Below, piece after piece: positions 23,601-64,000 of a stretch of 64,000 nt of DNA. The notes beneath the pieces are model-generated. The model was not told where the DNA came from. It worked only from the letters and a program-made list of their open reading frames with translations, and did no database searches. The DNA comes from Pseudoscleropodium purum (lineage: Eukaryota; Streptophyta; Bryopsida; Hypnales; Brachytheciaceae). Made by a program: the position numbers and the translations under genes. Positions within the stretch are counted from its first letter, which is position 1, and every line of letters begins with the position of its first letter. Location of the stretch: contig OZ017802.1 of NCBI GenBank assembly GCA_963969395.1, positions 21,049,410 through 21,113,409 of the forward strand. Reading direction: 5' to 3'.

Positions 23601-23699
23601 AGGGGGATAACTTTAGAGTTACTACAAATTTCAATAACAACTCAAAAATGACAACAAGTTAGTGAAAAACAAACACAATTAAATACATACAAGAACAAG

Positions 23700-37299: not shown

Positions 37300-37374
37300 T
37301 GGGACGACTCAATCAAACCAGATGGGCTCGATCACAACTGGGGACTCACAACAATTGGGAACCAAACAGCAATT

Positions 37375-38765: not shown

Positions 38766-38773
38766 AAGTAGAC

Positions 38774-38793
38774 CAGGGTTGTCAAATCGGACG
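38774..38793 (+). repeat. Left terminal inverted repeat of the giant hAT
   Basis: CAGGGTTGTCAAATCGGACG; pairs with the right end at 55258-55277. It is followed by CGGACG repeats and a block at 38806-38826 (containing GGACGTCCCGGACGGACGGA) that also occurs at the right end in the same orientation. Confidence 0.9.
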
Positions 38794-38970
38794 CTTCAGG
38801 GTCACCGGACGTCCCGGACGGACGGACAAAACGGACGGACGGACGGACGGACTTGTCCAACCCTAAGCGGACACTTCGGGCAGGAAATTCTGCCCCTAAT
38901 CAAAATTTTCCCTACTCCTGACCGGAAGTGTTTGACGTGGCCAGCCACGTTGCAATCAGCGCGCTGACGT

Positions 38971-39125
38971 AGAGGCGGGGACGTACTTAGGTTTGGGCAG
39001 GGACGTCATGGTGAGGCGGGGACTTACTTTTGTCTGGGCGGGGACGTCATGATTAGGCGGGGACGTACTTTTGTCTGGGCGGGGACGTACTTCGGTATGG
39101 GCGGGGACGTATTCGTGTCTAGGCG
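38971..39125 (+). repeat. Left subterminal array of the GGGCGGGGACGTACTT motif
   Basis: Seven copies of a motif close to GGGCGGGGACGTACTT, spaced about 20-27 bases, about 200 bases inside the left end. The right-end array at 55023-55111 has the motif in the opposite orientation. Such inverted subterminal arrays are where hAT transposases commonly bind; that role is inferred here. Confidence 0.75.
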
Positions 39126-39815
39126 TGTTTGGGGTTATTCTAAAGTCTTCTATATTATTTCCGAAAAGACAATGCTTTGCTGACCTTTTAATTACTCTAC
39201 CTACTTTGATCAAAAAAGATATCTGAGTGAATGTTTTGGTGCCCCATTTGTTATCCTCTAAAGTAAAATACTTTAATTACCAAACCATTGTTAGTCACTA
39301 TTTATGGATGATCTCTTTTTTCTCCAAAGGACCACACAATTTTATTTCTTGTTTTAAAAAAAAATAGAAAGTGATTGCTTTTATGGCCCCTTGGGCTTTG
39401 GTTACCTTAACTCCTGCTTTTGATAGAAAAAAAAAAGAAGTAGTCAATGCTTACATACACCACTGCTTTTATATTCCAATTATCTACAATTCTATGAATT
39501 CATTAAATTATTCATTTCATGAGAAATTAATACATTTCACTTTCCTAAGTTTCCTCTTACAAAGTCATGGATATGGACAAGATAATTCAAATGCATCACA
39601 CAACATCAAGCTACAAGCAATATATATGCATGTTTCTTTGCGAAAAACACAAATAATCTGGGATTTCGTCCATACATAATCCAATAACATGACTATGAAA
39701 ATGAGACTTCCAGACTTTGTCAACTTGTGCTCCTGTCATATTGTTACCTCACAACTTACTACTCATTCTTTACACATAGGTCATTTTAAGAATTGCCTAC
39801 ATGTCCTACGTGTGC
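39126..39815. other. AT-rich left arm of the giant hAT
   Basis: Between the subterminal array and the 3' end of the transposase. No supported coding; the 102-codon frame at 39371-39679 has no recognisable domain. Confidence 0.4.
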
Positions 39816-42800
39816 TCATGGTTCGCCTACATCTTTGAAACGACTTGATCGGCGAACTGCTTGAGTAGAAGGGCCTGCTCGCTCAACATGGCGAATGAGC
39901 AAATCGTCGTCATCCGGGGCTTCATCACAGTCCTCGTCGTACTCATCATCCCCGTCTGCATAATCTTCACTTCCAACATGTTCATCTCCGTCTGTTTGTT
40001 GACCTTCAAACTTTGAGTTCTCATTGCGGACCTCCGTGATTCTATTTCCACCACTACGGTTCAACCGCAACATTTTGTGTCTTCTAGCATCTGGGTCCTC
40101 CGCATCAGAATTTATAACTGGGCCTCCAAGAATCACAAATGCTGGGGTTGAGGATGTAGGTCCCGGAGTATAAGTCTGCAAAAATGGCAATACTTGTTGC
40201 TCAGCTAACCTGACTCCGACTCCACGATGCGGACGTTTGCGAGCTATTGACACTGTGTCTCCGTGGTCTCCATCATTGTTTCTTCCTCCACGACCACCAC
40301 GACCACCAGAACCACGAGTAGTATATTGACCCACCGCATGGACTACAGTGCTTTCAGAGGGTCTACCATTTGCTCCGATATTGGGAGCATTATCCACTAC
40401 GACATTTCCATCTCCCACTGAGCGTAACCCTTCTTGAAAAGATTTGGGATTGGAATTTCCAGATATATTCGGAGAAGAATGTTGCTGAGGGGGCACAAAC
40501 GTACGATGCTCTTGCATTGTACTAGGAATTGCTACAGAAGAGGGTGGATGGATACGATCGACTCCTCGAGCGCCTCCTCTGTTCCGTACACGTTGGACAT
40601 CAAATAGCCTCGGAATATTACCAGTTGGTTCAATTATGTCGATGGTCTCGCTTGTCCTTGTATTTTCGAGGCTCGCTCTCAAATGTCTATGTACATCTGC
40701 GTTGACGTTGTTAGGTCCGCCCAGCCTATTGTTGCTTACAATCATTGGAGCATCCTCAATAGGCCCTTCATGGTCTAGAACTGTAGGGTTTGTGCCATTT
40801 CCTCCATTTCCACCATTTCCACCATTTTCATCATCTCTATTTTCACGATTGTTTTGAGGTGGAGGAATGTCATCATCATTGTCTTCATCGTTGTCGTTGT
40901 CGTCATTTTGAACATTGTCATCTCCAACTATGGCTTCATCCTCTTCTACAGGAAAAACAAAAGGATCTACTTCATTACCAATTTCATCTTCTTGTTCTTC
41001 CTGATGTATAGGAGATGGACTAAGACGAGGATTGGGAGCCCAAGGTCCCCAAGCTTCATGACGAATGTTGTCTTCCATATCATCTTCTTCCCCGTAATAG
41101 TTTCTTGCTTCTTCGCGGTGGTCCATGTCTCGCCCCCAACCATGTGGGTTTGCTTGGGGTGCAGGTGGTGGCCGATTCGCTTCCATGTCGTCTTCTTCTT
41201 CTTCTGTCGCTAGCATAGCATCAAATTCTCGATGGCGGTTAGGTTCATCGACTGGAATGGGTCCAAGTTCATCCGGATCCGAATCCTCTGATACGTTGTT
41301 CAAATCATACCAACGAACTGGATCTGCTCCAGGTTTTTGACGAAGGACGCGACTGTTGGTATAAATGTACACCAAAATCTCAGCCTTCTCCACTGCTAGA
41401 CGATTTCTGTTCCTGTTGTGGACGAAGGAATACATACTGAAATTTCGTTCACAAGACGATGCTGAACATGTAAGGGCTAAAACACGCTTCGCAATTTTGG
41501 ACAAGAAGCAATCTCCAATTGCTTTCCACCATCGATGTGGAAGTAACTTTGCTTCCCGAATGTCCTGTGATGCGTCAGGACTATAGGGTCCTTCACCCTC
41601 CACGTATTGCACATATTCTTGTATGACGTCATCAAAACGCACACCCACCACATCCTTCATTTTTTGAACAACCCGATGTAGTGCACGAAGGGCCGTTCCA
41701 TCTTCCCTTAGAGCTGGGTTGTCCTTGATATAAGGATTCAACAATGCCCCAGCATAGTGCACGTCGGTAAAAAACATGTTCCACCTCTCCTCAAATGTCT
41801 CTTCCATGACCGTAGCTAGGTGATCCGGAAGGAAGAAAGGACCCTCTCTGAGTTGAAAAACATGTCGTCGCAACCTATGCATTGTGATCCATGCCTTGCC
41901 CATAGCTGGTTCCCGTCCATCAAACACACGCAAGGCCTTCAAAACGTCTTCCACAATGAACACGTAATTTTTACACCTCTGCCAAAATGTTAAATCATCA
42001 ATGGTATTCAGTACGCACATTGCGTCCCTCCGGTTCTGCGGTCCATTTTGCCTATTCCGAAGTGCTGCAACATAATTTTGGACTCGTGGTTGTCCTCCCA
42101 ACTGCTCCAAGACAGGTTTTAGTGTCACCAGTCGTTGCAACATGAGAAAGTGCGAAGCAAAACGAGTTTCAGCCGGTACTACAAGCTGCAAGTTTGGACT
42201 CAACTCCCGGAAAGTTGACATTGTTGCATGGTGATTTCTGATATAATTGCACACTGTCTTTGCCCTTGCTATTAAATCTTTGAAATCCAGCAACTTGGCC
42301 CAATCTTCAAGCAACAAATCCAGTGCATGTGCCGCGCACCCTTGCTTAAAGATGTGCGGATATGTGCGAACTACGTCATCCATTGCACCGAGCATGTTAC
42401 TCGCATTGTCTGTACAAATTTGAGTTACATTATTGGGACCCACTTTCTCAATGAAGGTTTTCAATTGGTCTGCTATATAGACCATTGTCTTGTTCTGCCC
42501 TGTAGTGTTGATGGACCCCATAAACACATCACCTGCGGGACATGACATCATGACATTCATGAGAGGCCGTCGATTTACATCGTCCCAACCATCCGTGCAA
42601 ATCGTTACCCCATAATTTTTTACTGCAAAACTTGTTTTTGCAGATATCTCATTCTCAATCTGTAGCTTCTTCGGTTCAATCAAGTTTGTTCTCAATTGGT
42701 GGTACGAAGGTGGAGAATATTCAAATCGTGCCAAAGAAGTTGCCTTGACTGCCTCAATGAAAGCAGGATTTCTTGTAATGTTGAAGGGTACATTTGCCTC

Positions 42801-43319
42801 ATAAAAAAAGCTTGCCCACTTTTCATCCAACTCTTTCCTCTTTGCAATGTTGAAGGCATCTACCATTTGTTGTTGATGTAATGATCTTGATCTTGTGAAA
42901 TTCGATGCTGCTTCATTGTTTGATGTTGGTAGTTGGTCTTCATTTTCATTTAGAACCTCCAAACGCCTTCTTCCCCCTCTTTCTCCTTCATTCCGAGCAT
43001 GTTCGTTTATATTTTCCGTGGCAACATTTGGAGCTGCTACGGATGGATCGCTCGGAATTGATTCACCGTCGTGTGGGTCCTCCAAATTTGTGCGTTGTGG
43101 AACAAATCCAGCGCAGTTGGCAAATTTATGTCTCACCGCTCGAGGTATTTTGGAACACAATGCTCGCTCACTTTTTGCTTTATAACTGTAGTGTGCAAAA
43201 GCACGCTCCCGTTTGTAAGCCGTTGTCCCGCCACAAAAGACACATGTGACTTTAGATCCATCAATAGAGAAATCATACCACGGTTCCCACTCTCTTGTGG
43301 TTTTTCGATTTGTCGCCAT
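39816..43319 (-). CDS. hAT transposase with long C-terminal extension
   Basis: Cuts and rejoins the element by recognising its ends. Uninterrupted frame of 1,167 codons from the ATG at 43319 (a GTG lies just upstream) to TGA at 39816. Order: BED-type zinc finger at about 10-70 (C26, C29, H43, C55); a DUF659-type hAT catalytic core at about 230-380 with ICTDGWDD (D243), QICTDNASN (D304) and the hAT-typical C328..H331 in CAAHALDLLLED; hAT dimerisation region at about 595-665 with LLPHRWW and SSCERNFS (E624 as the third acidic residue), then RNRNRLAVEKAEILVYIY. All three catalytic acids are present. Roughly 480 residues follow that ordinary hAT transposases lack: acidic runs, GGNGGNGGNG, an RGG-like GSGGRGGRGGRN at about 1000 and a very acidic tail. 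They look disordered and may bind nucleic acid or activate transcription. Looks functional. TATA box and motif array lie upstream. Confidence 0.92.
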   Translation of the reverse strand: MATNRKTTREWEPWYDFSIDGSKVTCVFCGGTTAYKRERAFAHYSYKAKSERALCSKIPRAVRHKFANCAGFVPQRTNLEDPHDGESIPSDPSVAAPNVATENINEHARNEGERGGRRRLEVLNENEDQLPTSNNEAASNFTRSRSLHQQQMVDAFNIAKRKELDEKWASFFYEANVPFNITRNPAFIEAVKATSLARFEYSPPSYHQLRTNLIEPKKLQIENEISAKTSFAVKNYGVTICTDGWDDVNRRPLMNVMMSCPAGDVFMGSINTTGQNKTMVYIADQLKTFIEKVGPNNVTQICTDNASNMLGAMDDVVRTYPHIFKQGCAAHALDLLLEDWAKLLDFKDLIARAKTVCNYIRNHHATMSTFRELSPNLQLVVPAETRFASHFLMLQRLVTLKPVLEQLGGQPRVQNYVAALRNRQNGPQNRRDAMCVLNTIDDLTFWQRCKNYVFIVEDVLKALRVFDGREPAMGKAWITMHRLRRHVFQLREGPFFLPDHLATVMEETFEERWNMFFTDVHYAGALLNPYIKDNPALREDGTALRALHRVVQKMKDVVGVRFDDVIQEYVQYVEGEGPYSPDASQDIREAKLLPHRWWKAIGDCFLSKIAKRVLALTCSASSCERNFSMYSFVHNRNRNRLAVEKAEILVYIYTNSRVLRQKPGADPVRWYDLNNVSEDSDPDELGPIPVDEPNRHREFDAMLATEEEEDDMEANRPPPAPQANPHGWGRDMDHREEARNYYGEEDDMEDNIRHEAWGPWAPNPRLSPSPIHQEEQEDEIGNEVDPFVFPVEEDEAIVGDDNVQNDDNDNDEDNDDDIPPPQNNRENRDDENGGNGGNGGNGTNPTVLDHEGPIEDAPMIVSNNRLGGPNNVNADVHRHLRASLENTRTSETIDIIEPTGNIPRLFDVQRVRNRGGARGVDRIHPPSSVAIPSTMQEHRTFVPPQQHSSPNISGNSNPKSFQEGLRSVGDGNVVVDNAPNIGANGRPSESTVVHAVGQYTTRGSGGRGGRGGRNNDGDHGDTVSIARKRPHRGVGVRLAEQQVLPFLQTYTPGPTSSTPAFVILGGPVINSDAEDPDARRHKMLRLNRSGGNRITEVRNENSKFEGQQTDGDEHVGSEDYADGDDEYDEDCDEAPDDDDLLIRHVERAGPSTQAVRRSSRFKDVGEP

Positions 43320-43543
43320 CACAACTTACAAGTTGGAACTCCTCACTTGTGCTTGTATTGTCTTCTACAACTTTGTACCTGTAAAAGTAGTTAGCGTTGG
43401 TTCCCTACTTGAACTGATTTTTACATCACCTCAGCCGAGAACCAAGGCCGCTTTCCACCCAATAAACTCTATCAAGGAGCTCTGAGAGGTCCGAGAATGA
43501 TGAGGTCCAGGGGAAAACGTGCCTTTAGTTCTGCCTACTCGTC

Positions 43544-43551
43544 CTTATATA
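43544..43551 (-). promoter_or_regulatory. TATA box of the transposase gene
   Basis: Minus-strand TATATAAG, 225 bases upstream of the ATG, with the GC-rich motif array starting about 35 bases further upstream. The same arrangement is found at the other three genes of the element. Confidence 0.55.
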
Positions 43552-43583
43552 CTCCCTCCTGGTGTCTAGTAGAACTCCACGTA

Positions 43584-44425
43584 AGGGCGCGGACGTACTA
43601 TACAAGGGCGGGGACGTACTAGAGAGGGGCGGGGACGTACTTGTCAGGGCGGGGACTTAGGGACTCCCGACTCCCGCACTCCTGACTCCCGCACTCCCGA
43701 CTCCCGCCCCAAAAGGCGTTCGGGCGAAGACGTCAGGGCGGGGACGTACTTGACAGGGCGGGGACGCTAGGGCGGGGACTCAGGGACTCCCGACTCCCGC
43801 ACTCCCGACTCCCGCCCCAGAAGGCGTTCAGGCGAAGATGTCAAGGCGGGGACGTACTTGTCGGGGCGGGGACGCTAGGGCAGGGACTCAGGGACTCCCG
43901 ACTCCCGCACTCCCGCCCCAGAAGGCGTTCGGGCGAAGACGTCAGGGCGGGGACGTACTTGTCAGGGCGGGGACTCAGGGACTCCCGACTCCCGCACTCC
44001 CGACTCCCGCCCCAGAAGGCGTTCGGGCGAAGACGTCAGGGCGGGGACGTACTTGACAGGGCGGGGACGCTAGGGCGGGGACTCAGGGACTCCCGACTCC
44101 CGCACTCCCGACTCCCGCCCCAGAAGGCGTTCGGGCGAAGACGTCAAGACGGGGACGTACTTGTCAGGGCGGGGATACTAGGGCGAGGACTCAGGGACTC
44201 CCGACTCCCGCACTCCCGCCCCAGAAGGCGTTCGGGCGAAGACGTCAGGGCGGGGACGTACTTGTAGGGGCAGGGACGTACTTGTCCAGGCGGGGACGCT
44301 AGGGCGGGGACTCAGGGACTCCCGACTCCCGCACTCCCGATTCCACGCGTCAAGGCGTTCGGGCAGGGACTTCAGGGCGGGGACGTTGGGGCGGGGACGT
44401 AGTCGCGGGGATGCTAGGCGGGGGA
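43584..44425. repeat. GC-rich tandem array upstream of the transposase
   Basis: About seven units of 94-127 bp. The anchor AAGGCGTTCGGGCGAAG recurs at 43713, 43821, 43922, 44016, 44124, 44225 and 44352. Each unit combines one to three copies of GGGCGGGGACGTACTT with a block of ACTCCCGACTCCCGC repeats. It sits directly upstream of the transposase TATA box. The plus-strand frames here (43838-44056, 43959-44267) are products of the repeat. Likely a regulatory array; the unit shifts suggest slippage or unequal exchange. Confidence 0.85.
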
Positions 44426-44954
44426 GAGATTCAAATCAGTTTTGGGTTTCCCTCCTCAAAACCTTCGAGGGAAGACATTTCAAATACTTGTACTTGCACT
44501 CTACAGCTGCCCCCATTTTTGCAGATTTCCTAAGATATGAAGTATTCAAGCATTAATTACTCATTCACTACATCATTCTAAATATCAAAGATAGATGCTA
44601 CAAAAAATGCGGTTTTAGTATTTAAGAAATTGTGTATAACAAATCAATTGAAGAAACGTTGAATTCGTCAAAAACGGGAAACATCAAATAAATTACGCGT
44701 GAATTGGAAAAAAATGACAAAGAGAATTGCAACAACATTAAGGATTGGACAGAAATATGTAGAATCCATAGAGAGACATTGCAACCGGTTTTTTAAAAGG
44801 AAGGCTATACATTTAAAAAGTGGCACAAAAATGGAAGGAAGAAATGAGAGAATAAAAAAATGGTAGAATATATGGGTGTAAGAAATGAACGGTTTATCGA
44901 AATGAAGGTACATGAAGAAGTTAGAGAACCAAAAAAAATAACTACGAGATGCAT
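44426..44954. other. AT-rich spacer inside the giant hAT
   Basis: Between the GC-rich array and the 56-bp minisatellite; no gene recognised. The frame at 44668-44913 (minus) is unsupported. Confidence 0.4.
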
Positions 44955-45800
44955 CACATGGAGGAAGACATATAAGTTACAGAATCAAATGAAAGAAATT
45001 TCGGGATAAAAATGTGAGGTGAGATAGATGATTTAGAGAATGAAATGAAAAAAATAATCGAATAATCATGTAAGGGGAGATAAATAATTCAGAGAACCAA
45101 ATAAAAAAATACTGAAATAATCATATGAGGGTAGATAAATAAGTTAGACAAACAAATGGGCAAAAAATTGGAATAACCGTATAGGGGGGGGAGATAAACA
45201 AAAGAGAGACTCAAATAAATAACAAATTGACTAACCAAGAAAGGGGACATAAACAAAAGAGAGACTCAAATAAATAAAAATTTGGATTAACCATATGAGG
45301 GGTTATAAACAAAAGAGAGACTCAAATAAATAAAAAATTGGATTAACCATATGAGGGGACATAAACAAACGAGAGACTCAAATAAATAAAAAATTGAATT
45401 AACCATATGAGGGGACATAAACAAACGAGAGACTTGAATAAATAAAAAATTGGATTAACCATATGGGGGGACATAAACAAACGAGAGACTTGAATAAATA
45501 AAAAATTGGATTAACCATATGGGGGGACATAAACAAACGAGAGACTCAAATAAATAAAAATTTGAATTAACCATACATGGGGACATAAACAAAAGAGAGA
45601 CTTGAATAAATAAAAAATTGGATTAACCATATGTGGGGTTATAAACAAAAGAGAGACTCAAATAAATAAAAAATTGGAATAATTTAACGACGGGATATAA
45701 GCTATAGAAACAAATGAAGAAAATAACGGAATTACCATATATGGGGATATAAAAATGTTTGAGAATCAAATGAAAATTTGTTGGACTCATCATACAAGGG
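44955..45800. repeat. 56-bp minisatellite
   Basis: Copies begin with ATAAACAAA at 45194, 45249, 45305, 45361, 45417, 45473, 45529, 45585 and 45641, so the period is 56 (55 once). The unit contains GAGAGACTCAAATAAATAAA and ATTAACCATATGAGGGG. More diverged units extend left to about 44,955 and right to about 45,800. It has no coding frame. Confidence 0.88.
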
Positions 45801-45861
45801 TTGAAATTGAATGAAATGTGAGCATTTTTTATTATGCTGTGAAATGGTTCAGGATTTAGGC

Positions 45862-45886
45862 TAAGGGTTTAGGGTTTAGGGTTTAA
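45862..45886. repeat. Short interstitial telomere-type repeat
   Basis: Three full TTTAGGG-type units in tandem, the plant telomere sequence. Short telomere-type boxes (AAACCCTAA) also occur in plant promoters; here it lies about 400 bases upstream of the RING gene, so either reading is possible. Confidence 0.6.
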
Positions 45887-46074
45887 CAATTTTTTTTATT
45901 TATCCTTTTAACTATTAGTAATGTTAATTTATTTTTCTCTTGGATGATGGGAGCTTTACGGGTCTTTGACAACTCACATGAAATAAAAGATGAGTGACAT
46001 TAAATGCAAGGTACAAGGTAAATCTTCCAAAATCTTTTTTTTTTATTCTAATTTTCTCCACCTACCGCCAGCGA

Positions 46075-46173
46075 CGAGTACGTCCCCGCCCAGGGCAGAA
46101 ACGTCCCCGCCTATTTTGAGTACGTCCCCGCCCTGACAGCGCGGACCAGCAGTATATATGCGCGTCCCCGCCC
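46075..46173 (-). promoter_or_regulatory. Motif array and TATA box of the coiled-coil/RING gene
   Basis: Four copies of the motif in minus orientation (TACGTCCCCGCCC; starts near 46078, 46101, 46120 and 46163) surround a TATATATG at 46153-46160, which lies 130 bases upstream of the ATG at 46289. This is the same motif as in the end arrays and at the other promoters. Confidence 0.65.
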
Positions 46174-46288
46174 TTTTAGCAACTGCCTCACAAACTCCCG
46201 TGTGCTCCACCTCTAAGCTGGTTGCCTAGGCGTCCTTGTGAGGTCCTTTTTATATTACGCTCTTTACTTCAACCCAAACCGCCGTGTG

Positions 46289-48499
46289 ATGGACCCTGCA
46301 GTGAAGATGACGAAGGCCGAACGAGACAGAACAAGAAAGAGGACTGGACAGAAGCAACGGAAACGGATGAAAGTTTTAAACAATCCGTTGAAGTTGGCAT
46401 TCAGGGGATGGGAAGATGAACCTGATCCATGGAATATGGACACTTGTGCCAATTACATTGAATGGTGCCACATTGGCAAGTCTTTTCCCATAGCCCGGCA
46501 CAACTATCACCGTCGCTTCCACAAGGCCAATTTGAGGTTCTGTACCGACGACGCATTTAAGAATCGTTGCATTGAAGTCTATCAAGTGTTATACGATAGA
46601 CCAACGGTGGAACGCAATGAAATTAACCTTTTCATTGCAAGAGGGGTACATGCAGAGGTCAAGCTAGGGAAGAGGGTGGATTGGTCAACCATCAAGGAGA
46701 GAGGTTCCAAAATAAAAGTTCCTCATTCCACCAATGGATTGATTCCAATGGGTGTACGAAGGTACCCTAACGGCGGATTGGGGTTCGTGAGGCCACTGAC
46801 TGAGTTGCCCCCTAACACATATGTAACCAGTGACTCTTCTCCTGATGATGACTCCGACGGGACGCGCACTCCACCGCGTGCTCTAGGTAATAGAATGGAA
46901 CATCGGGTAAAAAGAAGAAGGGAGAAGGAAATGACCACAGAAGAAGTTGTCTCGGAAGCAGTTTTAAATGACCGACTACAAGATTCAATGGAAGTAGAAG
47001 ATCTTCGGCTACCAAATGAAGCTGTCGAAAGTGAAGAAGATACAATCCCAGCCTTGAAGAGTAACCTCAACGAAAAAAGAAAGGAAATTCAAAACTTGTT
47101 AGAAGACACTCACAAGTTGAAGGTCGAGATCCAACAAAAGAACGATGTCATTGACCGACAGTCCCAAGAAATTGCCCGCCTTACAAGAGCTCTACAAGTT
47201 GGTAATGTATTCAGCAAAGGCCACGTTGGTGAAGGTCTACACAAAGCTGGTCACCTGTCTCACTTTACTGTAGGTGCCGAAGAGCTAGAAGTGCTTCGTG
47301 GAAAAAATGTCGAGCTCCAGAAACATTTGGATGCATTGGTGTCACAGTATTATGAGTGGAAGTTGGCGTGTATATTTACTGTGGACAAGAACCGACAAAT
47401 GGGAGCAGAATTGAAGAAAATTGCCAATCATTATGCAGTGCACAATCAAGAACGTGTTTTTGGCTTAACATCATGGGAACTAATGGATGAGTTATTCTCG
47501 GACAAAATGGAGACCAAAGTTGGAGTTGGAAATTAGACCATCATTGATTGGCCTCGAAATGGGTGGGATTTTGAAAATGAAAGGTCTGTCCATGTGACTA
47601 AACCGAGTACATTGTTGTGGCCAAAACCACCGAGCTTTGTGTTCGATGGTACACAATGTCCAATGTGTTTGAATGCCTTTGGCCCCGAAGGTGGATTCCA
47701 ATTGGGCACATGTGAGCATTTGTATCATCCAATTTGTTTGATTGCATTAATGGTCAATCGAAGGCGTTGCGTACTTTGCAAGGCTCCTTTCCATGAGCGT
47801 TTGTACAAGCTATTTGGCTTGTACGAGCATATGCCACCAAGCTGGGAATTTGATGTAATGAATGCTCCAGATCATCCACAGAAATGGGGAGAAGACCTCA
47901 TTTGGAATTGGCGTTATAAGGATCACTCTTTAGAGGTCTCTGGGCTTTCCAACAACTGGGGATGGGAATCAAACCCAACTGAAGTTGTTCGTGTGTGCCA
48001 CAATTTGATTAAAGGCACGGACGCTATTAGTGAAGGAAGAAGAAATTTCTTCTACCAATGCTTCAATGGCTATTGGGATGGAAATGAGCATCAATTTCGA
48101 TTTGGACCACATCCAAAGGGTTGGATTTGGGGCAACGACGGACAACGTATCACCGATGACGACGGAGTTCAACTTGTGGATCCTGGTGAATATGTACCTC
48201 CTACCGCACGAGAAAGAGTGATGATGTCTGAATCTGAATGGAGAGAGCAATTCAAAAATGATGCTGTAGACTTCTTGCTAGAAGAACACAGTCCGGGAAC
48301 TCGTATAGCTCTTCAAGAACTTCAACAATCTCAAATTCTGAGGGGCCTACTGGAGGAGGATGGACCAGCAAGACGAACACGCGGTGCAATGCGGCGACTT
48401 CGTTTGGACTCCAATGAAGATGATATTCCAATGTCCGGGACGCATGACACCGAGGCCGGTACAAGTGGTACCGCAAATAGCCTAGTTCATTTGGACTAA
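46289..48499 (+). CDS. Coiled-coil / RING-H2 cargo gene with one in-frame TAG
   Basis: From the ATG at 46289 the frame runs 415 codons to TAG at 47534-47536, then stays open in the same frame for 320 more codons to 48499, with no ATG near the restart. The two halves are therefore read as one former gene of about 737 codons. Order: basic start (MTKAERDRTRKRTGQKQRKR); a ~140-residue domain of unknown family (DTCANYIEWCHIGKSF to STNGLIPMGV) shared with the paralogue at 50,535; an acidic DDDSDGTRTPPR link; a coiled coil at about 255-310; then, past the stop, a RING at about 457-500 with ligands C-x2-C, CEHLYH, C and CVLC (C3H2C3, RING-H2). About 230 residues with several Trp and an acidic tail follow. 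RING-H2 proteins are usually ubiquitin ligases; the target is unknown. The TAG is either a nonsense mutation or leaves a RING-less 415-residue product. Confidence 0.75.
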
Positions 48500-48870
48500 G
48501 TGCACTTTTGCGTACTTCAAGCATTTGGAAAAATGTAAATATATAGCTATGTAAAGGCTGCTAGTTTTTATCTTTTTAGCTACTATTATATGTGTGGAAC
48601 TTTGTTTGATTACATTGTTGACTTTGTCCAATTTTTCAATACCATATTGTGCGACACATATGAAATAAAAATGCTCTTTTTATGACCTACGTATTACTTT
48701 CATTTTTAAAGTTTAAGGTGCATACAACTGGAAATGATTTCTTGGTAATGCAACTTTAGAATGTTTTTGGTTTCTTGAATCCCTGAGTCCCAGCCCAACG
48801 TCCCCGTCCAAGTGTCCAAAGTCGAATCATGACACCTTTGAAGGAGTTTGGGGGTTTGGGAGTTATGAAT
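48500..48870. other. Spacer 3' of the RING gene
   Basis: AT-rich; a single GTCCCCGTCCAAG stretch near 48,800 is a possible degenerate motif copy. Nothing else recognised. Confidence 0.35.
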
Positions 48871-49800
48871 TCAAAAAGTCCCATTGTTCCTAAGGGAGAC
48901 AAATGCATTTTTGGGCAAGTATGTACGGGCTGAATTTTCGTCCAGATTTTTCACAATGCCTTTTTTCAGAGAAAAAAATTGATAAGCTTCATGGAAATAT
49001 AATTTTTTTTCAATAGGTGTATGGGAACAAAAATTATGCCCAAATAAGCTCAAAATAGTGGACAAGAGGCAGTTCGGTCAGCCAAAAAATTTTCGGCATA
49101 CTTTGAATTTTTTCTGCGGAATTTTTTTTCTCATAGATTAAATTTTTGTCTATCTGGAAAGCTTTGATTAATTTCATTTGGATTTGTTATGAGGAAGTTA
49201 TGGACATTCTAGTTTTTCTGGCAATTACAGCATGTTCTTGGAAAAAACGACTTGCACGATTCATTTGTCAATGCATGCTTTGCATTTTTTCCAAAAAAAA
49301 TAAATTTGCGTGGTTTGATTTACTTTGTAGAACAATCTTCCTATTAGATTAGTGCATTTTAATTCCATCTACCCCATATTGATATTTTAGGTTTTCATTT
49401 TGTCTAGTACATATTTCTAGTTACCAATTGTTTTAAGAATGAAAATTAAGTTTTCATTTTTTTTTTTTTTTCTTTGGACTCTGAACTCTAATCTCCACTA
49501 TGAAGATTTAAAGCTCGGAGCTTTGTAGTGCAAAAATTTTAAGTTGAAAATGTTCAAAGTCAAAAAATCCAATTGCTCAATGTGTGGAAAAGCTTGCTTT
49601 TTCTACTTTAAACGCAAATATCTTGCAATTTATTCAATCACAATTTTTGGTTTTTTTCCCACACTAGTTTATACTAGTCAGGTGTAATATCCTACGGTTA
49701 GATGTGAAAATAAATGAATTTCAATATTTTCTTAGTCTTTGCTATAGAAATGGCAGTTTTGAGTGTTTTTGGGCTAGATAAGGCCTTGGCCCTTTAGGGA
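48871..49800 (+). mobile_element. TTAA-family element, copy B, nested in the giant hAT
   Basis: Collinear with copies A and C over its length: GTCCCATTGTTCC start, TGTACGGGCTGAATTTT, AAGTTATGGACATTCT, GAAATGGCAGTTTTGAGTG, and the end GGCCTTGGCCCTTTAGGGA. The flanking TTAA is decayed (TTCA and TTAC). It inserted into the giant element between the RING gene and its paralogue, so it is younger than the assembly of that region. Confidence 0.65.
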
Positions 49801-50534
49801 TTACACTTTAACTCACAAAAAACGGGAGCTATTCAATTCATAAGGAATGTGCATACAATACAAATACACACCTAAAAAATTAAAATGGCACTATATACAT
49901 ATGAAATGTCTAAAAGTTTGCAAAAGAGCAAAATGAATTTCTTATGAATGCAAAAGTTTGACAATTAGATCACAAAATAGAATTAAAAAAGTAAAAAAAG
50001 TAAAAATTATATTGAAAGACACATTTCAATGTACACATTGCTGGATTAGAATTCACGCCCTAATTAATATTTATATGAATTATGTAATTTAATTTTTTTT
50101 CTAAATTTTTTATTTATTGCATTAACACCTAATGGACCAGGGTTATTTTTTAAAAAGACATTGTGCAAAAAGCCAATTTTTGGGTATGTTATTAAAAATT
50201 CAAAAATTCAAAAAGAATTGTTTCATAAAAAATTCAACCAAACATCCTTGAAGTTCAGTACTTTACAAAAGTATGGTCAAGATATGAGATGTTTAAGTAA
50301 AAATAAGTATGAACCCTAAACCAACACAATAAATGTATATGAAATGAAGCAATCCAATTTTGCAAGTGACACGTCTTTAGCCAAAAATAATTTTTGTATT
50401 TTGGATGGGTAATACCGTAGAATATGAATATATTGATAAAAATTGTCTCATTACATGAGCACAACTGTACAGAACTAAAAAAGAACATGAAAATTTAAAA
50501 ACCTCGAGATAGCTATGTAATTGGATATTGCTAA
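49801..50534. other. AT-rich spacer inside the giant hAT
   Basis: No gene or element end recognised between the nested element and the 3' end of the RING-less paralogue. Confidence 0.4.
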
Positions 50535-51449
50535 CTAATTCCTTGATGTAGCAAGCTCTAAAGCATGTTCCAATCGTGCAATTTCTTGTCTGAGATTGCT
50601 GATGACTTGGTTCTTTTCTTCCAACGCCGCCCTCGACGTGTGCCTGTAATCGTGCAGACGATTAATTTCTTCGTGTTTTTCAACAAGTTCGTTCCTCAAG
50701 GCCGAGATTGTATCATATACATTTCTTCTATTTTCAGTGGGTTGTGCGTAAACTTCCTCGTGCACTTCATTTTGGATTTCATGTTGAGGTTGAGGATCTC
50801 GAGCATATTGTAGGGCCCTCCTCCGCCTACCACGTTGTTCCCCTTTGGCCGTCAGAGGACGCGGTGGAGTACGTGCTCCATCTGAATCGTCATCCGTCAT
50901 AGAATCCTCGGTGTCATCATGAGCTGTAGGGGGATTTACGATTGTCTTCAAGTGCCCCAACCCACCTTCGGGAAACGTTAGAACACCCATTGGAATCAGT
51001 CCATTGCTTGGATGAGGAACTTTTATTTTGGAACCTCTCTCCTTGATGGTTGACCAATCCACCCTCTTCCCTAGCGTGACCTCTGCGTGTACTCCTCTTG
51101 CAATGAAAAGGTGAACTTCATTGCGCTCCACCTTTGCTCTATTGTAAAGGACTTGGTAGACTTCAATGCACCGATTTTTGAATGCATCATTCATGCAATA
51201 TCGCAAATTTGCTTTGTGGAAGTATCGGTGGTAGTGGTGTCGTTCTTCAGGAAAGGCCTTGTCGATGTGACACCACTCAATGTAATCCGCACACGTGTCC
51301 ATGCTCCACGGGTCCTGTACTTCCTCCCACCCCTTGAAAGCAATTTTTAACGGATTTCGTAAAACATGCATCCGCTTCTTCTATACCTGTCCACTTCTCT
51401 TTCTTGTTTTGTCTCGCTCGTTTTTCGTCATCCGTGGTGATGTGTCCAT
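50535..51449 (-). CDS. RING-less paralogue of the coiled-coil cargo gene, with one in-frame TAG
   Basis: From the ATG at 51449 the frame reads MDTSPRMTKNERDKTRKRSG QV, meets a TAG at 51383-51381, and continues in the same frame (KKRMHVLRNPLKIAFKGWEE...) to the TAG at 50535. The N-terminal match to the RING gene (MTKAERDRTRKRTGQKQRKR) spans the stop, which falls where the other copy has Gln. The shared domain (MDTCADYIEWCHIDKAF to GLIPMGV) is about 80% identical by eye, and the DDDSDGARTPPR link and a coiled coil (ISALRNELVEKHEEINRLHD...) are kept. The protein ends after the coiled coil, so the RING half is missing. An ATG at 51371 could start a 278-residue product just downstream of the stop. 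A partner or competitor of the RING protein through the coiled coil is inferred. Confidence 0.72.
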
Positions 51450-51577
51450 TGCACGATGTTTGTGCAACAAAAATGACGTGGAATGTGATGTAGGGCCCAC
51501 TGAGACGCCCAGACAACCAGCTCAGAGGTGGCGCACGAGGGAGTTCAGAGGGCAGAAAGTGAGGAGGCGGGCACGGC

Positions 51578-51756
51578 CTTTTATACCGGGGAGCGCGGAC
51601 GTCAAGGCAGGGGCGGGGACGTACTCGCATCCAGGGCGGGGACGTACTGGGTATAGGCGGGGACGTACTCGCGACAGGGCGGGGACGAACTGGGGGCAGG
51701 GCGGGGACGTACTCGCGGGGTGGGCGGGGAAGTGGTTTTTGCCTTCCCTATATATT
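51578..51756. promoter_or_regulatory. Divergent promoter with central motif array
   Basis: A minus-strand TATAAAAG (51585-51578) serves the paralogue, 130 bases from its ATG. A plus-strand TATATATT (51749-51756) serves the kinase, 147 bases from its ATG. Between them are about seven copies of GGGCGGGGACGTACT at 51,606-51,730. The array is thus shared by two divergent genes. Confidence 0.65.
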
Positions 51757-51902
51757 TTTTTTTTGCTCATTTTGACATTGCCAGGCCTTCACTTTTAGCC
51801 TCACGTGTTAGTTCGCGATTTGCGGCCTATACAGTGAGTCGGAGGGTGCACAGGTGTGGCGCTTTATTTGTACGGGAGATTTTCGAATTTTTTTCGAATA
51901 CT

Positions 51903-53480
51903 ATGGCTGCATCAGGAAGTGGTTCAACGGGGAAACGCCCAATGGCCTGGGACTTGGATGTGCCCATCGAAGAAATAGTTGTTGCCGAGCAGAGCACTCA
52001 ACCGTCATCATCTTCGAATCCGACATCATCAAGTCATAAGAAAGTAAAACCGGCGCGACCCGATTGGCCTCCGATAGAGTACACACAAAAGGCACGATCA
52101 ATAGGTGTGGATTTTTATCGACGACGGAGTTTAGCAATGTTGGAAAGGGAGTACGTCAACAAGAACGAAAATGGTTACCATGAACTCTTGGAGAAGCTAC
52201 GTTACGAGATTGAAGTGACTATGGAATCATCTGAAGACTTCAACAATTACCAAGATTATTGGTTAGCTTCGGAGTGGCTTAAAAAAACTGTGAAGGCTTT
52301 GGCAACAAATATCGTGACGCAATGGCGTTACGATGCTAATAAAAAGGAGAATAGAACTGACTGGGATGTTGCAGACGAGGAACTTTTTGCAAAACTATCG
52401 ATGATCGAGACATTTTGCCAAGGTTTTTCAAAATCACAGGCACGAGGAAAATTACCATGGAAGGAATCGATGGAGAATGCTGTATTGACGCACTGCGTTA
52501 GTGGAACGTTTCAGTGGCTTGACAGCTCAATAAAAGTTGTACAGATGCCGGGATTTACAACGGAAGGAGGGTATGGGACTGTGATGAAGGTGCACATCAC
52601 AAGACTGAACAACATGCCAATGTGGATGGATTTTGCCGAGAAACGTCTCAAAGAAGAGAATCAGAAGAAAAAACGTTTGGAAATCATAAATGAGGCTGGA
52701 GGATGTCCCGTGAAGCATCCGGGCATCATCAGACTTTCGTATTTGAATCCCAAAACAATGGCCGGTTATTCGTTGTGGTGAAATGGTGGATCTTTGGCAA
52801 GTTTTTGGAAGAATATGGACAACAAGGTTTCTGAGGTGCTGGAAATCGAAGACATTGTTAAGCAACACGACTCAGAGCTGAGCAAAGCGCAACTGGAATG
52901 GGTTGCAACATATAGGAAAAATCGCGTTGCATTGGCGTTGTCCTTGCTTGTGACAGTCTGGAAATGTCACAATGAGAACTACATGCACAACGATTTATCT
53001 CCATCCAATGTGTTGCTACATTTTGACCCTTGGAAGAAGAATAGAATATGCATTGGTATATGTGATTGGGGAATATCAAGCCGAGTTGTGGAGAAGAAGC
53101 CATCAAAATATGGCTATGACAGCATGGAAAAGCTAGCGAAAGTGAAGTAGGTGAAAAAATTTGTTGCTCCAGAATTGTTCTATGTATACGGAAGTATAGG
53201 TTCAGAGAACTCGCTGGAAGTGATGCAACGAAGGCATCTGTATAGTGTAGCAGCTGATACATATTCCGTAGGATGGATAGCACAAAAGATTTGGAATGAG
53301 GAGTGGGATTCCCAGTACTTCGTTAAAGAAAAATGCATGAATTATGCATTACTTAAAATACATCTTCAAAGCTTGCAGAAGGAAGATGTGAATGATCGGG
53401 CAACTATAGGAGATGTTCTGGAGACACTGAGAAAACCACCGTACGGTTGGCTAATGCCAGAATGTTGTTATCGTAGATAG
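51903..53480 (+). CDS. Divergent protein kinase cargo gene with two in-frame stops
   Basis: One frame of 526 codons from the ATG at 51903 to TAG at 53480, broken by TGA (codon 293, 52779-52781) and TAG (codon 416, 53148-53150). Residues 1-210 form a family-specific N-terminal part with a Ser-rich stretch at 31-45. The kinase domain follows: glycine loop EGGYGTVMKV (221-230), likely ATP lysine K247 in FAEK, hinge SLW-stop-NGGSLASF, catalytic loop HNDLSPSNVLL (D364, N369; HND instead of HRD), DWG instead of DFG at 388-390, and VAPELF (APE, 422-424) just after the second stop. The C lobe runs to PPYGWLMPECCYRR. All catalytic residues survive although the frame is broken. At the TGA, a TGG-TGG pair appears to have become TGG-TGA. 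It is probably a recently disabled kinase gene unless the stops are suppressed. The substrate is unknown. Confidence 0.72.
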
Positions 53481-54477
53481 GAGTTTAGAAGTCGTATATA
53501 TTCTAGAAGAGGTGGTAGAAGAAGAAGAGGTTATGAAGGACGTAGTGTGAGTTCTTTGAACATGCTTTATGTACTCGGAATTATCCGAGAATTATATTAT
53601 TTTAAAAAAGTAAAAATTTTCTGACACTTGCGTTTACCTTAATTACTTAATGTTTTGGAGTATTTTTTTACTATAAACATTCCAAAATTGCCATTTTTAC
53701 TGCGAGGACCAAAATGTAATAAAATAAAAAAATTAAACACATATAACGGTAGGATTTTGCAATAAGCTAATTTAAAAAGATGTGAAATGAATTCCCGATA
53801 TTTTTGCTTGGAAGATTGGGAGATATGGACAGTTTGAAAGTTGAAACAAATAGGATTACTTTATTTCATTGGAGGGTATAATGTTGGCTAAAACTAAAAC
53901 AATACTTATTCCTGCAAAGAATTAAACAAGTGTGGGCTTCCTTTAAAAAAGTGTGAGCTTTGTTTTGGAAAAAATTTGTAGAATACAAAAAATTGGGAGT
54001 ATTACAGTCAAAAGTTCTAGTCTTGGAGGGAGGGAGTGAATTGGAGAATTAAGAAAAATTTCAAAGCATGTGGATTTCAGTTTGGAGAGTCTTTATGGAA
54101 AGAAAAAAATGGAAATGTTGGGGACTTCCGGACTTGGGGTTTAGGTTTGTTGAGTCTTTGTGGAATGCAAAACAGAAAAAAGAGGGTTTAAGTTTAAGAT
54201 TTTAATTTTTTAGGGATTTGTTGGATTGAATTTTTGGGGGGGAGTACGTGGGTTTAGATTTGGTGGAAGTTGGTGGAAGATTCAAAAATTTCGGAGTGTG
54301 TGGGACTGTGGATTTATTGTTAGAGGGACTTGATGCAATGGAAAAAGATAGGGAGGGTTTGTTTTTGCATTTGGCTAAAATTGATGGATTAAAAAAATAT
54401 TTGGGAGTGTATTAGTTTAGGTTTAGAAGGGCGTGGAGTAATAATTTTTTTGGGGGGGGGATTACGGTTTAGGTTTA
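53481..54477. other. Right arm of the giant hAT, part 1
   Basis: AT-rich to about 54,000, then a G- and T-rich stretch to 54,470 with several G runs (54,235-54,242; 54,451-54,460). No gene recognised. Confidence 0.4.
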
Positions 54478-54645
54478 CCAAAGACTTCATAAATTTTTAC
54501 CATATGATTTCAGTCAAGTAAAGTATAAGATCCTACAATTAGATTCTATTTTTTATTTGTTTGTTTGTTTTGTTAGATGAATGCAATAGAAGGGGCAATT
54601 TTGAGTGGTTTTGGACAAACAAATGATCTTGGTCCTTTAGGAGTT
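54478..54645 (+). mobile_element. Right-end fragment of the TTAA element family, copy E
   Basis: TAAGATCCTACAATTAGAT, GGGGCAATTTTGAGTGGTTTT and the end GATCTTGGTCCTTTAGGAG match the right 165 bases of copies A-C and run directly into TTAA at 54642-54645. No left end was found, so this copy is truncated. Confidence 0.55.
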
Positions 54646-55022
54646 AAAATGTAAGATATAAAAGTAAGAAGACTATATTCAATTAGACAAGATGTTTCAC
54701 CATTTCTAAGTATATGAACCAGGTGAAAAATGGCTAAATGAAGATCCAACATTATCCCATGAACGTCCAGAGTCATCTCTAGAATTGAGAATTTTGGAAA
54801 AAACCGTTATAATGTGTGGTTTCAAATAATATTTCGAAAGTCACATACAAAGGAAAGTTATAGATTTAGAGTTTTAGATTCCATCCATACGGTTAGATTC
54901 ATCAATGTTATCTCCATTATTTTTTTACAAATTTTGAAAGGGGAAATCCAAAATTCCTTCTAAATTCAATTACAAGCAAAATATTATCAATTTTTCAATC
55001 AAATTTGTTGGATTAGATTTGA

Positions 55023-55111
55023 AATACGTCCCCGCCCCGAAATACGTCCCCGCCCTGGAACAAGTCCCCACCCAGGAGTACGTCCCCGCCCTAGAATACG
55101 TCCCCGCCCTA
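55023..55111 (-). repeat. Right subterminal array of the GGGCGGGGACGTACTT motif
   Basis: Five copies (one degenerate) reading AATACGTCCCCGCCC on the plus strand, about 165 bases inside the right end and inverted relative to the left array at 38971-39125. A frame at 55019-55345 here simply translates the repeat. Confidence 0.75.
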
Positions 55112-55257
55112 ATGCCACGCTGGACGCCACGTGTTGACGATTTTCGTTTCCATTGGGTGATTTTTCATCCGCTAAAAGTCAGCTGCCCATTGACCATTTC
55201 GGACGGACACAACTTCAATCGGACGTCCCGGACGGACGGATGGACGGACAGTCTGTC

Positions 55258-55277
55258 CGTCCAGTTTGACAACCCTG
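55258..55277 (-). repeat. Right terminal inverted repeat of the giant hAT
   Basis: Ends CCAGTTTGACAACCCTG. The block at 55220-55240 contains GGACGTCCCGGACGGACGGA, identical to and in the same orientation as the block near the left end. Confidence 0.9.
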
Positions 55278-55285
55278 AAGTAGAC

Positions 55286-57779
55286 CACTTAAGCATTGGA
55301 ATTGAATTTTGGGCAAGTGAAACTTCTCAAAATATTTTTCAATAAATTTTCCTTGAAAAGAGGAATTGGCATCTCATCCAAGTTGTTTCATATTTTTTGG
55401 ATTATTTTTTATTTAGTTATGAATTTTCAAACAAAAAATGTCATAGGTCCTTATTTATGATCCTAGGTCTATCATAAAGTGTTCACTACAACTTCTAAAG
55501 AGAAATGGAAAAAGTAAGGAGACTGATTGGCTCTTGCAATAATAAATAATATTTTTTCTTGATTTTCCAATGATTGTGGAGGTCCATTTAAGAACCACCT
55601 CCAATCCATTCCAATACCATTTATAGGGGCAGTTCAAAATATCCAAGTGGAATTTGAGCCTCCCAACTTACAAGGTTGTGCATTGAGGTTGAAAGGTCAA
55701 ATATGCACAAACTCAAATTTCCACCTTCAAAGGCAACAATTAGTTTTACATCTAAAATAAATGCGACAATCAAGTGTCACTGCAAGGCATCCTCTTCTTT
55801 GGTCAAGAACCAATTGTTTTTGCTATTGATGTAGGTTTTCTTTTGAGTGGATAGTGAGAGAATGTGAATTTCAAAGAAAAACATAAATCATTTTCAAAGG
55901 GGTACAAGTAGCATTCAACAATTAGCCATTAAACTTTTCCAAAAATTAGAAAGTAGATACACGTTTCACTTTGTCATTGGCTAGAAATTTGACATGAATG
56001 CTTGTGACATCCCTTCAAAACCCCATACTTGTATTTGTATACGATATGCTTCATCTGCAAACAATATGGGACAATGTATATTTGTATAGCCGGATCATGT
56101 ATATGTATATACTTTATACATTTCCCATATATTCCACGTATATTTCATATGTTGTACATATTTTGTATTTCATGTTTGTCTTATGTGTCTATATATGTAT
56201 TATTTATTTTTCAAGATTAGATTTTTGGCATTAGAGGGATAGGGGGATTTTTATTTACAAAATCAACAACTTTCGATTTTTCCAAAGAAGGGAGATGCAT
56301 TAATTGCAACATGAACTTGGGTGTATCATTACATGAGATAATAAGGCTACAATCTAATATTCGAATGATTAGTTTCAATAATACAAGAGGGATTTAAGAA
56401 CGGAGTTATAGATGAAATCTAAAGTTATATTCAATTTAAACTTAACAACACTTTTTTATGCAATTAATATGGAAAAAATTAGTCCTATAGAATTTTTATT
56501 TTTAATCCCTAAAAAAATAGGGCACATTTTGCATTAATGAAAAATGAATTAGTATATTTAGTAATAAAAAATTCTCAAAACAAAATGATGCAATAGACGC
56601 ACCAAAGAACTACATAATCCAACTAATGCTTTTCTAATTTTGATTTTGTACCTTAGTCTTGTATCCAAACCAAGAACTTTACTAGTTTTCATCAAAAATT
56701 GTTGGATTTCAAACAAGAATCATTTGTCACTATTGGAAAAAAAAGAACAATGACCAATGTATATAAAGTAAACAAAAACAAAATATGTTACTAAATTTGT
56801 GAGAGGTCAAATATAATTAATAATCAATTAAAAAAATTCTCACATGGAAATCTTGAGGCAAAAGAAAAGATGAGAGAGAAAAAAAAATGAGCGTGAACAA
56901 CAAAAAGCAAGAAGACAACAAACAACAAGTAGATAATAAACAACAAGATAGCAAATAACAAATAAGGACAACAAAAAGGAGAAAGATATTAAAAAAGATG
57001 ATAAGTGAAAGGAAAATAGAAAAACATGAATTGTTGCATTTAGAAAGTGATGATTAATCTAAAGAGGCGGCGACTAACCTAAACCCTAACGATGAATGAA
57101 AAAGACAAAATCTCCACCGTTCATCTTAAAAAATTGCATATGCAATATGAAGTTGCCTCATCACAATTGTCATAATGTGTTTTATGACTACACTATGACT
57201 AGTATATAACCAACCAATGACTAGTGAAATGCACTTACATCATGCTACATGTTAGATACCAAAAGCTCAAGAATATATGATTGGTACCATGACTAGCCAA
57301 CACAACTAAAAAAGATGGTTGGAGTATGATTGTTTGATTGGTAGACAATATATTTGTAAATATATCATTTGCATACAAAAATATATTAGCAAAGCTCCTT
57401 CAAGTTACCAAATGTCCAAAAATGACTACTCTATAACTTTATACAATTGTATTTCAATCATTTACAAGTCATTCATACATGATTAAGGCAACCAATAATT
57501 GCTCAATGATTGAATGTAAGATTTTTATTATATTATTATATTGGTCCACAATGTTTGTGTTAGATGAACTCAAACTTTTTGCAAATTATTCTTAGACAAC
57601 TATAAAGATAAAAAACCAATATCCCTAGAACTTGATTCATGTACAATGAGCTCAATGAATTAAAACATATGCAATATGAATATAATATGTGATAAATCCA
57701 AGGAAATGTAAATTTTGAAAGCAAAAGTGTAAAAAGAATAAGGTCAAGTATTTATTTCATGACTAATCGATGAAACATG
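55286..57779. other. AT-rich DNA right of the giant hAT
   Basis: No gene supported. A TATA/TGTA-rich low-complexity stretch at about 56,030-56,220 gives rise to two overlapping frames that are not called. Short AACAACAA-rich stretches lie at 56,890-56,980. Confidence 0.4.
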
Positions 57780-62300: not shown

Positions 62301-62887
62301 CAAGTTAAATGCAAATTATTAAGGTAGTTGACCAAATGAACTAAGCCACTATGGTTTCTTATACAAGATAAGATAGACCAAAACTAATAGCTCAAGCTTA
62401 TAGAGAATTCTTTTTCCTTTTCAAAAATGTAAAATTTGACCCTAGATGATTCTCCTAGCCAAAGTTATAGGTGGATGAAGTTTGACCACCACTTGATTTA
62501 TCAAACTTCATCTATGGTTTTGCCTTAGTTTTCTATTTCAATTTCATTTGAAAATTTATCAAAATTCTTAGGATATTGAACTCTATCGCAATCTAAAGTT
62601 TGGCCTCTATTGGTTATTTTTAAAAAAATTCATCTAAATTTGGCCTATTATTTCACCTTTCTATATCTTCTTAGTTTTTTGGTCTCTTCTCAAGTGTGAA
62701 GTATCTATGGATTTCTAATAGCTTGTTCTACAAGACTTTATTATAAACTTTCTTCTTTAATCTATCTTCTAAGCTCTTAATAAAAAAAATCCTTGATTTT
62801 TAATCCTCAAAACAACTTCTATCAATTTACTACTTTTAGAGTTTTATAATTTTTCCTTATAGAGATTAATTTTAGATTTCTTGATTA
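59351..62887. other. AT-rich DNA with a short tandem repeat
   Basis: A 15-17 bp unit (core TATAGGTTAGACTT) is repeated about four times at 60,507-60,577. Another AAACTTCATC section lies near 62,470-62,520. The frames at 59831-60094 and 60823-61077 are pyrimidine- or AT-driven and unsupported. Confidence 0.4.
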
Positions 62888-63806: not shown

Positions 63807-64000
63807 GACACTTGTTGATTGAACTTTTTTACTAAAAGTTATTGATGGATGAAGTTTGAATTCTAATCAGTTCTTAAAACTTCATTTGCTAATTTTTTTA
63901 ATCTATAATTTGAAATCAACTTCGAATTTCATCTATAAGTTTCAAGTGATTACTACTTTTTGATCCTATAATCTTGTTTCAAAGTTTAGGTTTAACTACT
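63807..64000. other. Repeat-derived AT-rich end of window
   Basis: GATGGATGAAGTTTGAATTC near 63,845 and AAACTTCATTTGC belong to the same degenerate family as 17-27 kb; the copy runs off the window. Confidence 0.35.

Follow-up and report, generated by a model that had tools for sequence, protein, structure and literature searches.

A multicopy hAT-superfamily transposon of 16-17 kb in the moss Pseudoscleropodium purum, with a kinase gene, a RING-H2-type gene and motif arrays at its ends and genes

The element and its copies

The window analysed here is a stretch of 64,000 nucleotides from Pseudoscleropodium purum (contig OZ017802.1), and our subject is a block of about 16.5 kb within it that contains a transposase gene, a gene for a RING-type protein, a RING-less paralogue of that gene and a protein kinase gene. 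This block is a single representative of a hAT-superfamily DNA transposon, 16-17 kb long and present in many copies, which moves as a unit and generates 8-bp target-site duplications (TSDs). Its boundaries and its terminal inverted repeats (TIRs) were located as follows.

38766-55285: whole transposon, about 16.5 kb, one transposition unit
38766-38773, no strand: left TSD, 8 bp, AAGTAGAC
38774-38793, + strand: left TIR, CAGGGTTGTCAAATCGGACG
to about 38860: subterminal stretch rich in GGACGGACGG, inward of the left TIR
55258-55277, - strand: right TIR
55278-55285, no strand: right TSD, 8 bp, AAGTAGAC

The four genes occupy the interior.

39816-43319, - strand: hAT transposase, 1167 amino acids, open reading frame, with DUF659 and the hAT dimerisation region
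46289-48499, + strand: RING gene, read without introns, with N-domain, coiled coil and RING-H2; one in-frame TAG
50535-51449, - strand: RING-less paralogue, 304 amino acids, with N-domain and coiled coil; one in-frame stop
51903-53480, + strand: protein kinase with K, HND, DWG and APE motifs; two in-frame stops

The original prediction, made from the letters of the window, had reported inverted ends matching at 18 of 20 positions and an identical 8-bp duplication outside them. Alignment of both termini gave the same 18 of 20 equal positions between the left TIR and the reverse complement of 55258-55277, and AAGTAGAC was present on both sides. When identical 8-mers spaced 1-25 kb apart in the window were ranked by the match of their inverted flanks, the AAGTAGAC pair was the best of 60,895 identical 8-mer pairs with 18/20, and the runner-up reached 15/20. 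No internal TIR was found in the window's element with up to two mismatches allowed.

We searched the source assembly (313 Mb in 52 contigs, eleven large ones of which total about 312 Mb) with the exact 13-bp end of the element, a search that short or diverged derivatives may escape, and obtained 70 occurrences compared with three for the reversed control pattern. Fifty-two of the 70 ends form 26 facing pairs with a spacing of 15.8-34 kb, mostly 16-20 kb. The TIRs agree at 17-19 of 20 positions in all 26 pairs, 13 of the 20 being equal by construction because the ends were selected as exact matches, and the TSDs are perfect (8/8) in 21 pairs, match at 7/8 positions in three and are absent in two. 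The perfect TSDs of these 21 pairs differ from one another, which bears out the earlier claim that the whole block moved as one unit.

Eleven copies, namely that of the window and ten other pairs, were read end to end, and the remaining 15 pairs were read at their junctions. All 11 have perfect 8-bp TSDs, each different, and all contain the transposase, the RING gene, the RING-less paralogue and the kinase in constant order and orientation. Among the 15 junction-read pairs, 10 showed perfect TSDs, three had one mismatch and two had none; probes placed by distance matched the kinase in 13, nothing in one and the far end of the element in one, and RING probes fell on the RING gene in nine and elsewhere in the element in six. 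The genome-wide RING and transposase searches, which score best candidates only, listed 30 RING-protein loci at an identity of at least 96%, of which 26 lie inside end pairs and four beside a lone exact end; the 30 transposase loci listed at that threshold are the same loci. Eighteen exact TIR matches remained unpaired. Ten of these were read, of which two are true element ends and eight are without the subterminal sequence; two of the eight unread matches adjoin recent copies. The original prediction had looked for support to further insertions, alike in gene order and each flanked by a separate 8-bp TSD, and these were found in all 11 full copies. The two contrary outcomes that it had named, ends that never enclose the cargo elsewhere and cargo genes outside such elements, were not seen: every one of the 11 read copies encloses all four genes, and the listed recent RING loci lie in the element or beside its end.

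Genes and motif arrays

The expectation of an intact hAT transposase inside the block proved correct, as the frame of the window copy is open and matches DUF659 (PF04937, E 8.7e-36) and Dimer_Tnp_hAT (PF05699, E 7.1e-9), both above cut-off. The element has the features of the hAT superfamily in this transposase with its dimerisation region, in its 8-bp TSDs and in its short TIRs. The transposase frame is open in two of the 11 copies read. Its relatives number 46 at E <= 1e-10, and the three named Closterium or Chara are distant. These kin in streptophyte algae, the sequence contexts of the decay described below and a germin-like reading frame outside the element make a plant host likely. An alignment of 16 transposase rows has an invariant D in CTDNA and an invariant E in SCERN, which are putative catalytic acidic residues.

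The kinase gene, judged by its domain and catalytic residues, is predicted to encode a protein kinase. The Pkinase domain was detected in 13 of 13 kinase members, and the K, HND, DWG and APE residues are invariant in all 13 rows of their alignment. The gene is open in four of the 11 copies, and 15 relatives were found in other sources.

The RING gene probably encodes a RING-H2 (ubiquitin-ligase-like) protein, as suggested by its zinc ligands and fold. A RING profile search matched RNF24, RNF38 and Arkadia at E 1.9e-7 to 0.004, and Pfam zf-RING_2 matched at E 1.8e-5, under the curated cut-off. The top Foldseek hit of the RING protein was 1iym (prob 0.97, E 0.48), with none at E <= 0.001, and the structure models were weak, with a mean predicted local distance difference test (pLDDT) score of 58.7 for the RING protein and 68.3 for the kinase. 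The conserved N-domain of the RING protein gave no Pfam match above cut-off and none in solved-structure sequences at E <= 0.1. Thirty-two RING relatives were found in other sources. The paralogue matches the RING gene over 513 nucleotides at 78% identity, and their N-domains differ with a non-synonymous divergence (dN) of 0.18 and a synonymous divergence (dS) of 0.94, a sign of long-term constraint. The RING gene is open in four of the 11 copies and the paralogue in eight. The earlier description of a RING gene, its paralogue and a kinase as carried genes holds in that all three are present; the stops that they contain in the window copy (one, one and two, respectively) had gone unreported.

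One kind of GC-rich tandem motif occurs inside both ends and upstream of each gene, at the following places.

38974-39113: left subterminal array of GGCGGGGACGTACT-like units
43545-44403, - strand: transposase promoter region, with a TATA box near 43551 and an array at 43586-44403, whose unit number varies between copies
46077-46158, + strand: RING promoter, with an array at 46077-46132 and a TATA box at 46153
51585-51754: bidirectional promoter, with a TATA box at 51585 (paralogue), an array at 51612-51713 and a TATA box at 51749 (kinase)
55023-55108: right subterminal array, inverted relative to the left array

The window has 29 matches to the motif GGCGGGGACGTACT at up to two mismatches, against an expectation of 0.02, and 28 lie inside the element. 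Its units are often 18-23 bp apart, and their number differs among copies. In the orientation written ACGTCCCCGCCC, the motif faces away from the element's interior at both termini, and in the promoters of the transposase, the RING gene and the paralogue it faces downstream; the kinase and the paralogue use one common array. A TATA box adjoins the array for all four genes of the window and also for a related RING gene on a 4.9-kb contig (L001, described below), in which the motif is the variant GACGTCCGCGCCCC. Each gene has an array and a TATA box before it, and arrays stand at both ends as well, so that the ends and the genes look co-regulated. These arrays, common to the ends and the four promoters, are an addition to the element's content as it was originally described.

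Recent burst, decay and older relatives

Over their length, the 11 copies agree at 98.4-98.9% identity, and they are star-like in their relationships. Of their two-state differences, 787 are private and 126 shared, and no pattern of sharing covers more than seven sites. Near-identical, star-like copies point to a short burst. From their pattern of change, we infer that about 30 copies arose in a recent burst, were silenced by the host through CG/CHG methylation and now decay about neutrally. Per gene, C:G to T:A accounts for 80-92% of the private differences, and change at CG and CHG sites is roughly three to eight times as frequent as at CHH sites. CG and CHG as mutation targets are a sign of plant-type DNA methylation, and this C-to-T pattern suggests that the copies are probably silenced and decaying. 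The 490 private coding differences comprise 318 non-synonymous, 30 stop and 142 synonymous changes, compared with a neutral expectation of 318.2, 33.7 and 138.1. The in-frame stops in three of the four genes of the window copy apparently result from methylation-driven decay. Recoding, readthrough or editing was considered as the meaning of the stops and dropped, because 30 of 32 are private to one copy, they fall in all four genes and their number is the neutral one. As a separate observation, the observed/expected ratio of CpG is 0.34 in the left flank (1-38765) and 0.18 in the right flank (55286-64000), with values of 0.7-1.2 in the genes and arrays of the element; the DNA around the element is depleted in CpG, and the insertion may be a young one.

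Besides the recent copies, the RING matches listed include 32 older stretches, grouped as 21 loci, with an identity of mostly 40-60% (range 30-61%); 30 of the 32 contain in-frame stops. At one of these loci (C42:18.97M), a kinase stands head-to-head with the RING gene, array motifs lie between the two, and a degenerate terminus, CATGGTTGTCATA followed by GGACGGAC, is found 1.4 kb past the kinase end. The 3 kb upstream of 14 further older RING loci contained a kinase in 12 cases, giving 13 of the 15 loci tested (six loci whose match starts far inside the protein were left out), and the control, 14 stretches of the window outside the element, contained none. This pairing at 13 of 15 loci argues that the gene set is old, as does the open RING gene beside a terminus of like kind on the contig L001. 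The kinase and the RING gene look like an old pair and an old fixed part of the element, not recent or variable cargo. In the window, the kinase stands head-to-head with the paralogue instead, which may therefore be a truncated duplicate that took over the place of the RING gene beside the kinase; an N-domain tree did not resolve the closest kinship of the window's paralogue and RING gene. Between the old kinase and RING gene at C42:18963501-18973000 (L101), there is also a short GC-rich stretch, at about 8320-8690 of that locus, which starts with AGGGTTGACAGGACGG, ends with TCGTCAACCCTA and resembles a miniature element related to the ends of the giant hAT.

A more distant relative lies on the contig L001, which is filed in a cyanobacterial metagenome-assembled genome and is evidently eukaryotic despite that label. 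It contains an open RING gene with 47% amino acid identity, an array and a TATA box upstream of it, and an array downstream followed by the terminus TTTTTGACAACCCTG, which reads CAGGGTTGTCAAAAAGGACGG inward. The contig contains one end only. Between the RING gene and that of L001, the proportions of non-synonymous (pN) and synonymous (pS) differences are 0.375 and 0.82, and pN below pS indicates purifying selection over that distance. The flank past the element end of L001 (4832-4906) is an inverted copy, at 93-96% identity, of 816-910 upstream of its RING array. Viral contigs scanned with the RING protein, the transposase, the kinase and the TIR yielded no relative, and the left part of the element matched nothing in plasmid records.

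The original prediction envisaged a giant hAT lineage that had taken up a set of regulatory-type genes. The set stands, being constant in all 11 copies, and may have been taken up from a host. No intact host donor appears among the RING matches listed, which beyond the recent loci consist of decayed older relatives and of the paralogue; the genome-wide searches covered the RING protein and the transposase and not the kinase or the paralogue.

Possible roles, known systems and other features of the window

DUF659-type members of the hAT superfamily are similar to the window's element in transposase domains, 8-bp TSDs, short TIRs and subterminal repeats; the element differs from them in its length of about 16.5 kb and its three further conserved genes. 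Typical hATs have the transposase as their sole gene. Among the top-listed open-access papers on giant or gene-bearing hATs, on hATs with RING or kinase genes and on bryophyte hATs, there was no hAT with such a gene set, in agreement with the earlier remark that no plant hAT with it is known, and the word hAT is absent from a review of giant transposons. The nearest published cases in these sources are ToxhAT in fungi and Vandal elements with an Ulp1 domain. ToxhAT, about 14 kb long, is likewise a large hAT-named element that moves a non-transposase gene (PMC12506042, PMC11857905), but it is fungal and carries other cargo, whereas about 30 copies share the gene set of the window and older relatives have part of it. 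Starship giants are also large and gene-bearing; they are based on a tyrosine recombinase, unlike the window's element with its hAT-type transposase and constant gene set.

In the VANDAL elements of Arabidopsis, which are Mutator-like elements (MULEs), VANC targets lie in tandem repeats of non-coding regions that differ between related elements (PMC5735166). VANDAL elements with VANA, VANB and VANC resemble the window's element in having several element genes and tandem motifs in non-coding, terminal parts, and also in the change of the repeat between relatives, here from ACGTCCCCGCCC in the window to GACGTCCGCGCCCC in L001, but they belong to a different superfamily, and VANC is not described as a kinase or a RING protein in that source (PMC5735166). 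The likeness is a resemblance and not a membership. The hallmarks of MULEs are a MULE transposase and 9-bp-type duplications, and the assignment of the window's element to VANDAL was rejected because it has a hAT transposase and 8-bp TSDs. Ulp1 belongs to the ubiquitin-like pathway. Ulp1-carrying (KIU) Vandal elements, which are plant DNA transposons that keep an Ulp1 domain, are similar to the present element in joining such a transposon with a domain of that pathway (PMC13317346); they differ in having Ulp1 instead of RING-H2 plus kinase and in being MULEs, not hATs.

We consider it very probable that the element is an autonomous multi-gene hAT with the anatomy and history described above. 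By analogy with the accessory genes of VANDAL elements, its kinase and RING protein may work for the element, a proposal to which we give roughly an even chance. The transposase, or the N-domain of the RING protein and the paralogue, would bind the arrays; binding at the ends would assemble an excision complex, and binding in the promoters would co-regulate all four genes. The RING-H2 protein and the kinase would then act in trans, with silencing factors of the host or the transposase as their targets for ubiquitination or phosphorylation, and the paralogue might compete or partner through the common N-domain and coiled coil. A broader and more doubtful idea is that ancient giant hATs encode a post-translational counter-defence, in which a kinase and a RING-H2 protein expressed from end-type arrays would disarm the silencing of the host or else license the transposase. 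The arrays would co-evolve with their binding protein between lineages in a VANC-like manner.

Several observations weigh against these readings. The kinase was not found at two of the 15 older RING loci tested, no transposase was present in the 18.5 kb read around the kinase and RING gene at C42:18.97M, and the 1.9 kb upstream of the RING gene of L001 contain neither kinase nor transposase. The transposase is less firmly linked to the older loci: six older transposase loci were listed, two of which have a same-strand older RING match, at 6.4 kb and at about 25 kb, and four of which have none near. The arrays show no trace of protection from methylation by a bound protein, with a decay at CG sites of 3.22% in arrays and 3.06% in coding sequence (p = 0.66), a result that concerns copies already silenced. 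As to neutrality, the kinase has 49 private silent changes where 37.3 are expected, the other three genes showing no excess. The shared differences comprise 49 non-synonymous, two stop and 12 synonymous changes (40.2, 4.1 and 18.6 expected); they show no shortage of amino-acid replacements, and hence no visible selection while the burst took place.

Alternatively, a kinase gene and a RING gene of the host might have been captured a single time and be carried along passively, with no role for the element. Plant DNA transposons commonly capture host fragments (PMC13317346), and the private mutations of the recent copies are about neutral, but we regard this account as unlikely, because the RING and kinase families are conserved over deep divergence, kinase and RING gene are paired at 13 of the 15 older loci tested, the genes have a promoter motif in common with the transposase and the ends, and the RING matches listed include no intact host donor. 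It is still far less probable that the genes benefit the host, as genes of Starship-type elements can: the regulatory type of the proteins and the giant cargo elements of fungi would suit this idea, yet the 11 read copies decay about neutrally and their gene set is constant, not variable. A nested or composite artefact, whether from several adjacent elements mistaken for one or from an assembly error, might be suspected from the internal arrays that resemble ends and from a nested 0.95-kb repeat; its probability is negligible, given that all 11 full copies have the same content at different sites with different perfect TSDs and that the window's element has no internal TIR at up to two mismatches.

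If the accessory-gene reading holds, a kinase and a ubiquitin-ligase-like gene would have been kept as a stable old toolkit, tied to end-type repeats, in a cut-and-paste element. The usual view of DNA transposons is that of a transposase plus passengers. With about 30 recent copies and 21 listed older RING loci, the role of the accessory genes is directly testable in one genome.

Two further repeats lie within the element.

44972-45682: 56-bp minisatellite between the transposase and the RING promoter
48854-49803: 0.95-kb dispersed repeat nested in the element, in all 11 aligned copies

Two further copies of the 0.95-kb repeat, 74-78% alike, lie in the flanks of the element, one at about 3660-4595 and one at about 62884-63807. 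Elsewhere in the window, a 97-bp tandem repeat of 8.7 copies is found at 6825-7666, several stretches of 0.5-1.4 kb at 15362-29525 are mutually repeated in direct and inverted orientation with 65-72% identity, and 36892-37308 contains what is presumably a germin-like reading frame.

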